DNA of 64,000 nt from Candidatus Gastranaerophilales bacterium (GTDB lineage: Bacteria; Cyanobacteriota; Vampirovibrionia; Gastranaerophilales; Gastranaerophilaceae), in the NCBI GenBank assembly GCA_944325735.1, contig CALVBI010000003.1, positions 149,051 through 213,050 on the forward strand. The letters run 5' to 3'. Numbering within the stretch: the first letter of the stretch is position 1; each line of letters starts with the position of its first letter. Below, in pieces: positions 25,917 to 28,182 of the stretch. The notes beneath the pieces were generated by a model. The model made no database searches. It was not told where the DNA came from and saw only the letters and a program-made list of their open reading frames with translations. The position numbers and the translations under genes were made by a program.

Positions 25917-27437
25917 TTATAAAACCTCAAATTCTTTAAGCCATTCTTTTTCTTGCTCTGTTAACATTGAAAAATCAATCAATTTCTTTTCATAATTCAT
26001 ATGAACAAAAGATTTTATTTTTCCATTTTTCATATAGCAAGAATTTTCAAGTCTTACACCAAAATAATCTTCATTATAAAGACCGGGTTCGATTGTAAAA
26101 CACATGTTATTTTTAATTTCAACTTTTGCCATTTCATTCTTGCTCAAATTAGGCGGATATTCATGCACACTTACACCAATTCCATGTCCTAAACCATGAT
26201 TAAATACAAAACCTTCAATTTCATTTTCTGAATATATTTTTCGAGCAAGATTATCAATATCATACCCAACTTTTAAATCAGAATTATATGCATTCAAAAA
26301 CATTTTTAAAACAGTTGTATAAACTCGTTTTTGCAATTCAGAAGGAGCACCTTTTACAAAAACTCTTGTAATATCAGTTGCCAATCCTTGTTCATAATAA
26401 GCTCCGCAATCAATTAATACAAGACTACCGTCTTTTAAAATTTCATCTTTTGAGCACTTTGAATAATGAGCTAAAGCTGAATTTTTATCCTTTGCAACAA
26501 TTGATTTGAAACTTAAACTCTTTGCACCAAAACGCTTAAATTCTTTTTCCAACTGCTCTGCAATATCATATTCTGAAATATTATCATTATTTTCAATAAA
26601 ATCCCGAATTGCTTTAACTGCCATATCAGTTCGTTTAAAAGCCTCAATATAATGATTAATTTCATCATCAGTTTTTACTGACTTCATCAATTTTATCGGA
26701 CTATCAGATAATACCTCAACTTTTTCGCCAATTAATTTATAATCATAAGCATTAATTGTCGATTTATCTACATAAATTTTGCCTTTATAACTTTCGACAA
26801 AATCGTCAATATCATCTAACAAACGAGCTCGACCTGCTAAAATTACAGCTTTCCCTCTTATTTTAGAGGAATAATTTTTTGAAAAATCTCTCAAGTTAAA
26901 TAAATAAGCAACTTCTTCTAAATTAGTAATTAAAACAGCACCATCAATATCAATATCTTGTATTTTTTCTTCTACAGGAACACCATCAACTTTTACAATA
27001 TTTGAACTATCATAATCAATAGTTTTATCTAAAGGATCATTGTTAAAATACTTTAGGTTAATACCATTTTTTTCAAGATATTCAACACGAGTTTGAGAAT
27101 TTTTCTTTGCAAAAATTCCTAAAGTTTCACCTTGAGGAATTTTTTTTATTAACTCTTCTAAAAATGTTTGACCTGTCTGCAATTTAACAACAGATACAAT
27201 ATCATGATTAACCTCTAAATCTGCCTGAATATGGTATCTGCCATCAACAAATAAATAAATATCTTCCAAAGTTACTAAAACATCTCCTGTAGAACCAGAA
27301 AAATCAGTCAAAAAATATCTTGAATTTTCTTCTAAAGGAGTATATTCTTCCAAATATTTATTCGTAGAATTTACGAGCAGGAAATTTACTCCCTGTTCTT
27401 TCATAAATTCTCTAATCTTTTCGACTGAACTAATCAT
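25917..27437 (-). CDS. M24-family aminopeptidase P (Xaa-Pro aminopeptidase-like)
   Basis: This protein of about 506 residues starts at the ATG at 27437; a TTG one codon earlier is less likely. Two creatinase-like N-terminal domains precede a pita-bread C-terminal domain. The metal ligands are visible as [41 protein letters not shown] and GVRLEN. This is the layout of long aminopeptidase P enzymes that remove N-terminal residues before proline. It overlaps the parvulin stop by eight bases. Pairing a prolyl isomerase with an Xaa-Pro peptidase suggests a shared role in proline-containing peptides. Confidence 0.9.
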
Positions 27438-27720
27438 CAATCATGCCTGTCAATTGAATTAAGTGCCAACCAAATTGAGTTTGAACTGGATCAGAAATTT
27501 CACCAATTTCTTTCATGGCAAAAGCAGCATCTTCAAAAGGTTTTACCATAACTCCTTTTTTAAAGAAACCTAAATCTCCACCATCACGACCTGATGGACA
27601 AAGAGATACTTCTTTTGCAGCATCTGCGAAAGATTTACCACCCTTAATTTCTTCTAACAAATTTTTAGCTTCGTCTTCTGATTTTACCAATATATGACTT
27701 GCTCGAACTTCTCTTAACAT
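27430..27720 (-). CDS. parvulin-type peptidyl-prolyl isomerase
   Basis: This 96-residue protein is a single parvulin domain without signal peptide, so it is cytoplasmic. It has [18 protein letters not shown], the [21 protein letters not shown] loop and the closing FGWHLIQL, all typical of PpiC. It catalyses cis-trans isomerisation of Xaa-Pro bonds. It is the first gene of an operon running through the M24 peptidase and RNA methyltransferase to dnaA and ruvA. Confidence 0.93.
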
Positions 27721-27792
27721 AACTATTTACTCCTATTTTTATTCTACTTTTTAAATAATAACATTAAAAAATTTTTATACAATTACCCCATA

Positions 27793-27955
27793 ATTAAAAA
27801 ACTTGCCCGATTATCTCGGACAAGTTAGTGCATATCAAACATAGAGTCTGTAAATCTTGGGAATAAGCTTGTTATATTTTCAACCAAACCTGCAAAGAGA
27901 AAAAATCTTATCGCAACCCCGAAAAAGTGCCTGGATATAACAAGCTTACATATAT
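27793..27955 (-). ncRNA. candidate structured RNA with 14-bp helix and terminator
   Basis: This 389-base gene-free stretch (27721-28109) is not featureless. On the minus strand TAAGCTTGTTATAT (from 27948) pairs perfectly with ATATAACAAGCTTA (27877-27864), enclosing about 57 bases. After a 37-base linker comes a terminator hairpin (AACTTGTCCGA with TCGGGCAAGTT, 27826-27800) followed by six T. A TTGAAA lies a little upstream. This has the build of an independent small RNA or an attenuator leader of the parvulin operon. It does not match tmRNA, SRP RNA or RNase P as I know them. A 6S-like RNA cannot be excluded, but the 5' and 3' ends do not pair. Confidence 0.5.
27795..27826 (-). terminator. 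terminator hairpin of the candidate RNA
   Basis: AACTTGTCCGA, loop, TCGGGCAAGTT (one mismatch) and then TTTTTT on the minus strand. Confidence 0.8.
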
Positions 27956-28073
27956 ATGATAACGTTTTTTTCAACACTTTTCACCACTCTTAAGAATTAG
28001 TTTTTATAATATTTTATAAAGATTATTGATTAACTCTAAAGGATTAGTTTTTCTTATTTTTTTAATTTAACTC

Positions 28074-28109: not shown

Positions 28110-28182
28110 GCGGAAGTAACTCAATGGCTAGAGTACCTGCCTTCCAAGCAGGCTGTTGCGAGTTCGAGTCTCGTCTTCCGCT
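28110..28182 (+). tRNA. tRNA-Gly (anticodon UCC)
   Basis: A 73-base cloverleaf. The acceptor arms GCGGAAG and CTTCCGC pair fully. The anticodon stem CCTGC/GCAGG encloses CTTCCAA (anticodon TCC), and the T-arm contains GTTCGAGTC. CCA is not encoded; a T run follows at once and may end transcription. Confidence 0.96.

Follow-up and report, generated by a model that had tools for sequence, protein, structure and literature searches.

6S RNA is a stand-alone, terminator-ended RNA that folds into a long hairpin with an inner bubble. Bacterial SRP RNA is one long hairpin, in which an invariant apical part sits on a freely changing stem. The Gastranaerophilales are non-photosynthetic gut relatives of cyanobacteria and are known almost only from metagenome assemblies. 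For the human microbiome, a structured RNA pipeline has produced 3161 candidates (Fremin and Bhatt 2021, PMC8040213, covered here in part). We analysed a window of 64,000 nucleotides (the whole stretch of DNA under study) from a Candidatus Gastranaerophilales genome, in which a gap of 389 bases separates ppi (27430-27720, minus strand) from tRNA-Gly-TCC (28110-28182, plus strand). The element in this gap is a conserved structured RNA gene and no chance hairpin.

On the minus strand, from about 27949 to 27795 within the locus at 27955-27793, lie in order a promoter, a long helix (P1), an enclosed helix (P2) and an intrinsic terminator. The RNA core, as delimited by the covariance model match, is 91 nt long (27861..27951, minus strand; G000:C3:176911-177001) and scores 109.7 bits with model R1, the training set of which includes this copy. 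The 5′ strand of P1 (27935..27949) pairs with the 3′ strand (27863..27877) and comprises AAGCUUGUUAUAU/AUAUAACAAGCUU plus flanking pairs, giving 14 Watson-Crick pairs, or 15 with the outer G-U. Within it, the 5′ strand of P2, CCAGGC (27929..27934), pairs with the 3′ strand, GUUUGG (27884..27889). A nearly invariant hairpin, P3, follows at 27906..27926 with the form UUUUUCG[GGGUUG]CGAyAAGA, where y is a bulged pyrimidine. Beyond P1 come a linker motif, GACUCUAUGUUUGAUAUGC (27830..27848), which is the window's form of YRYGTTTKRTA, and the intrinsic terminator (27795..27826), with a hairpin at 27826-27800 of 11 pairs, 5 of them G-C, and then a T-run. A previous sequence-only reading had described a perfect 14-bp helix, the enclosed pairing CCAGGC/GUUUGG and a strong terminator, in that order on the minus strand, and all of this was confirmed at the positions above. 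Scanning 700 bases gave 2 terminator-like sites, against 0.2 expected from shuffles. Folding of 27955-27793 gave -47.9 kcal/mol compared with -30.2 +/- 3.6 for 200 dinucleotide shuffles (z = -4.94), none of which was equally good.

The sequence-only reading had also proposed a search for compensatory changes, of the kind expected of a stand-alone structured non-coding RNA, and these are present. In a model-fitted alignment of 49 diverse copies, 94.1% of cells are paired and 24 of the 28 pairs show both-sided changes. As counts on the model-fitted alignments A4 and A5 lean to the model's own structure (and L220 is misplaced by about 2 columns in A5), we give alongside them a count from a sequence-only MAFFT alignment of 38 diverse copies. 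Here P1, P2 and P3 together are paired in 92.3% of cells, with both-sided changes in 18/28 pairs and none of 500 shuffles did as well. On this alignment, slid versions of the structure are just 38-48% paired. Among 30 copies aligned within the genus, P1 and P2 are paired in 99.4% of cells with both-sided changes in 6/21 pairs, a result equalled by 0/500 shuffles.

The letters of P1 and P2 vary freely and the pairing is maintained. All 15 pairs of P1 show both-sided changes in alignment A5. For P2, 98.6% of cells are paired in the 49-copy alignment and 5/6 pairs change on both sides; genus copies carry CCAGGC/GUUUGG, CCGAAC/GUUCGG and CCGGGC/GCUUGG with pairing kept. P3 is paired in 93.5% of cells of the 49 copies. 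Its both-sided changes (4/7 pairs) occur only in the most distant genera, for example UUUAUUCG/CGAUAUAAA in L218, and support P3 as a real hairpin. CGGGGUU is invariant in all 38 rows of alignment A3. Three g30 genomes (L209, L221, L225), however, have an interrupted CGGGG run. The U-run inside the most conserved part has 5 or 6 bases, and because its length varies by a single base the RNA core is not protein-coding. In L092 much of the apical half of the RNA is repeated directly after it, just after 6529 (TTGCGATAAGAGTTTTTCTTTAGCGGGTTTGGTTGAA), possibly a partial tandem duplication.

We then examined the ends of the gene in 83 copies confirmed by the covariance model. In the window a consensus match to a promoter, GTGAAA - 17 nt - TATCAT, lies at 27956..27984 on the minus strand, and the consensus over the 83 copies is GgtgAAAa...gtTATtATata. 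In 57 copies the end of the -10 box lies precisely 6 nt ahead of where P1 begins. A hexamer with at least 5/6 matches to TATAAT is found within 22 nt upstream of P1 in 79/83 copies, a count that is weak alone because about 61% of AT-rich shuffles also reach ≥5/6. Consensus matches at a fixed position point to a promoter and an intrinsic terminator of the gene's own, and we infer that it is transcribed. Transcription would begin with the first P1 base, some 6-7 nt downstream of the -10 box, a start that the sequence supports. The transcript would form one long hairpin of P1, P2 and then an asymmetric inner loop bearing P3.

Two kinds of 3′ end are predicted. A U-run stands straight after the 3′ strand of P1 in 22/83 copies, most of which come from distant genera, although L026, from the same genus as the window, is among them; in these copies P1 could itself act as a terminator. 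The YRYGTTTKRTA linker is found in 43 of the 61 copies without this U-run and in none of the 22 with it. A separate terminator hairpin with a T-run is present in 57 model-confirmed copies (mean -12.7 kcal/mol). So there appear to be two forms of the RNA: a short one of about 90 nt, in which P1 and the U-run would end transcription, and a long one, in which the linker and separate terminator of the window's clade would lengthen the transcript to about 155 nt, as in the window.

The sequence-only reading had left open whether the element is a stand-alone small RNA or an attenuator controlling whether transcription continues into ppi, pepP, the methyltransferase, dnaA and ruvA. In near relatives the RNA lies between tRNA-Gly and ppi. 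The tRNA-Gly gene is found within 650 nt upstream in 70/94 loci, and ppi lies no more than 400 nt downstream, in the same orientation, in 85 of the 100 pattern-found near loci with enough downstream sequence. One reading of neighbourhoods left out L178, L179, L180, L082 and L094, the cores of which do not match the orientation regular expression. Such an arrangement, with a terminator between the RNA and ppi, is what a cis-acting attenuator or riboswitch of the operon would show. However, the RNA is not always upstream of this operon on the same strand. Distant genera keep it without ppi, which is absent downstream in most of the distant loci examined, and the next downstream gene is often convergent. 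Among the distant loci listed, the RNA follows leuB (L182, L183, L186, L188, L189, L190, L191, L194, L195, L221, L225), a tcdA-like gene (L220, L222) or a sugar permease gene with pyrF downstream (L223, L227), or accompanies trx and a prepilin gene (L181, L184), where gene names come from a reading of the translations rather than a family search. Changing neighbourhoods of this kind are unlike those of a cis-regulatory leader. L115 and L162, from near genera, lack ppi downstream; there the RNA is immediately preceded by a gene for an XRE-type regulator in the same orientation.

Nor was a conserved antiterminator pairing seen in the one pairing scheme considered. The 3′ strand of P1 against the 5′ arm of the terminator averaged -4.51 kcal/mol when both came from one locus, compared with -4.29 +/- 0.24 when partners were swapped between loci, and 35/200 swaps were as good as the own-locus pairing. 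Moreover, an extended -10 box, TGTTATTAT, can be read directly at 27755..27763 (minus strand), between the terminator and ppi. A box of this type follows the terminator in 29/57 loci compared with 173/1140 (15%) of shuffles, an excess that suggests a separate promoter for ppi; the box in the window is probably that of the ppi operon. We consider an attenuator or riboswitch governing the operon highly improbable, with both synteny and the pairing test against it. The stand-alone reading is favoured by the promoter at a fixed place, the gene's own terminator, the covariation and the conservation of the RNA where no ppi operon follows. Because distant genera have other and often convergent neighbours, we regard the element as very probably a stand-alone structured RNA gene.

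The loci after leuB raise another explanation, that the RNA is the processed 3′ end or the terminator of an upstream gene (such as leuB in g30 and g37) with no start of its own. In g30 the RNA begins about 50-60 nt past the leuB stop codon, and P1 with its U-run would terminate transcription. A -10-like box is, however, kept at the same place in g30 too, and the tRNA-Gly gene is divergent in the window's clade, so that no near gene reads into the RNA there. A 3′ end would also leave the invariant P3 unexplained, and this origin seems most improbable.

Upstream of the promoter of this probable stand-alone gene, at 28030..28047, is a palindromic element, TTAACTCTAAAGGATTAG, a variant of CTAATTCTnnAGnATTAG that is kept in the genus alignment. 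The strict palindrome (TAATTCTNNAGNATTA/TAATTCTnnAGnATTA) is present in 8 copies at 7 sites genome-wide, and the backwards control gives 0; sites in G000 include C2:155111, C2:155357, C2:572593 and C4:1671. Several tandem copies are near a rex-like gene, one site is near genes for an XRE-type regulator and prepilins, and the variant sits between tRNA-Gly and the RNA promoter. The palindrome is probably a transcription factor site and would be a candidate regulator site for the RNA promoter.

To determine how widely the RNA is distributed we used both BLASTN and covariance models. Plain BLASTN of 58 genomes matched 30: the genome itself, 28 of the 32 others of its genus and 1 from another genus of the family. 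A second BLASTN match in the same genome, at C2:429705, covers only the promoter part, before a prepilin gene, and is no second copy. Model R1, built from the genus copies, matched 174/286 genomes of the order. R2 and R3, rebuilt with more distant copies, matched 187 and 191 of the 382 genomes of the class, and R2 matched 128 of 386 from the phylum; the E-values of the covariance searches come from a shortened calibration and are rough. All matches listed in these searches belong to the window's own bacterial family, within which R3 matched 251/383 genomes, 196/289 of good quality, in 27/41 genera. Outside the family there was no significant covariance model match, and 20 genomes of other families searched with permissive filters gave matches only at E 0.44 to 0.94. 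Where a genome had no other copy, R2 matches with E of 0.36-0.94 were taken as chance.

Within the family the RNA is present in, for example, g1, g23, g27, g30 and g37, and was not found in g20, g31 and g33. The 132/383 family genomes without an R3 match, some of them well assembled, imply that the RNA is either dispensable or has diverged beyond the model. Three well-assembled g20 genomes (G058, G066, G069) gave no copy even with permissive filters, which would reflect loss or strong divergence. Copy number is one in nearly all genomes, with two copies in G003, G254 and G650 and three in G165. The G165 copies (L218, L219, L220) are near-identical and two of them are at contig ends, consistent with a recent duplication or an assembly effect. 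Most matching GTDB contigs are titled Candidatus Gastranaerophilales, Melainabacteria or bacterium, and a few bear other names (Fusobacterium, Muribaculaceae, Brachyspira, Clostridiaceae). Among the latter, L070, L112 and L163 have ppi-pepP downstream as in the window, which suggests mislabelling.

How might such an RNA act? P3, its loop, the bulge and a flanking CAC are conserved in their exact sequence, and in P1 and P2 only the pairing is kept; we therefore infer that P3 with the loop GGGUUG, the bulged pyrimidine and CAC would be the surface recognised by a partner, with P1 and P2 as its scaffold. P3 is likely the active part. The RNA would then most likely act in trans, with this invariant hairpin displayed to a partner, either protein or RNA. 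The presence of the gene in two thirds of the family's tested genomes, together with the near-invariant hairpin, suggests that a partner so far unsought exists in the cell.

A base-pairing small RNA would share the whole anatomy and differ in mode of action alone, the loop GGGUUG or the U-run pairing with several mRNAs and altering their translation or decay. A stand-alone gene with a terminator, usually in single copy and with changing neighbours, fits this, and the G-rich loop is exposed in the model. However, the P3 stem is kept nearly as strictly as the loop, and the complement GCAACCCCG is found only twice in the genome, with the RNA's own complement as one of the two, compared with 3 matches for the backwards control. 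With no genome enrichment, we rejected an antisense target defined by the full complement. The scarcity of GCAACCCCG makes a simple, long pairing by P3 less likely; short or imperfect pairing is compatible with it. We regard base pairing with mRNAs as possible, if rather doubtful. An 8-nt stretch of 16S rRNA around position 1107 would be complementary to GGGUUGCG in the loop region, although chance alone should give a match this long somewhere in rRNA.

Since the letters of the P3 stem are kept too and the complement is not enriched, a protein-type partner is somewhat more likely than plain base pairing with mRNA, and the partner could be a protein or a ribonucleoprotein, which we put forward tentatively. 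A more specific proposal, speculative and on balance unlikely, is that the RNA is a lineage-specific, housekeeping-type RNP RNA of the Gastranaerophilales, a long rod, free to evolve in sequence, that would present the invariant UCG[GGGUUG]CGA hairpin to a dedicated protein, the ribosome or RNA polymerase. With the covariance alignment at hand, the RNA should be easily found in existing metatranscriptomes.

Lastly, we compared the element with known families. The covariance search against Rfam that the sequence-only reading had called for was carried out with Rfam 15 and gave no match at gathering score over the window element, so that no known family, 6S RNA included, accounts for it; up to E 10 there were only sub-threshold, unrelated matches. 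Rfam searches of nine distant loci found tRNA only, apart from an SRP RNA in L196 that is separate from the element. Low E-values for miRNA-like families in L191 were dismissed, being far below those families' gathering scores and of a kind that any long hairpin would give. 6S RNA was rejected, with no RF00013 match over the element; the genome's only 6S-like candidate lies elsewhere (C2:664807-664990, 38.2 bits, under the cut-off of 46.4). SRP RNA was rejected likewise (no RF00169 or RF01854 match here), and the genome's SRP RNA is at C2:582185-582270 (RF00169, 50 bits; RF01854, 82.6 bits). A usually single copy, one long hairpin and a promoter of its own would also suit a known housekeeping RNA (6S, SRP, tmRNA, RNase P) in divergent form. 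Such an origin is nevertheless extremely improbable, given no match at gathering score, none of weight below it, and SRP and 6S-like RNAs located elsewhere in the genome.

No paper on this RNA was found in the open-access literature of PubMed Central. The pipeline of Fremin and Bhatt could have found it; the main text of that article (PMC8040213), of which part was covered, does not name Gastranaerophilales, cyanobacteria or dnaA, and the RNA may sit unnamed among the supplementary candidates. With that proviso as to the supplement, the RNA is a new family as judged by Rfam and the open-access literature.

Taken together, the element is like 6S RNA (RF00013) in being a stand-alone gene that ends in a terminator and folds into a long hairpin with an inner bubble, but it is about half as long, has no match to that family and coexists with a separate 6S-like candidate. 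With bacterial SRP RNA (RF00169/RF01854) it shares a long stem that changes freely beneath an invariant apical part, yet it has no SRP match and the SRP RNA of the genome is elsewhere. The raiA motif (ModT), going by part of the published account (PMC11706538), is likewise a conserved structured RNA gene of many genomes, and the element differs from it in having no Rfam match and in belonging, as far as tested, to one bacterial family. If the proposal of a housekeeping-type RNP RNA were true, this RNA would rank with 6S, raiA and OLE RNA, across most of a single family.
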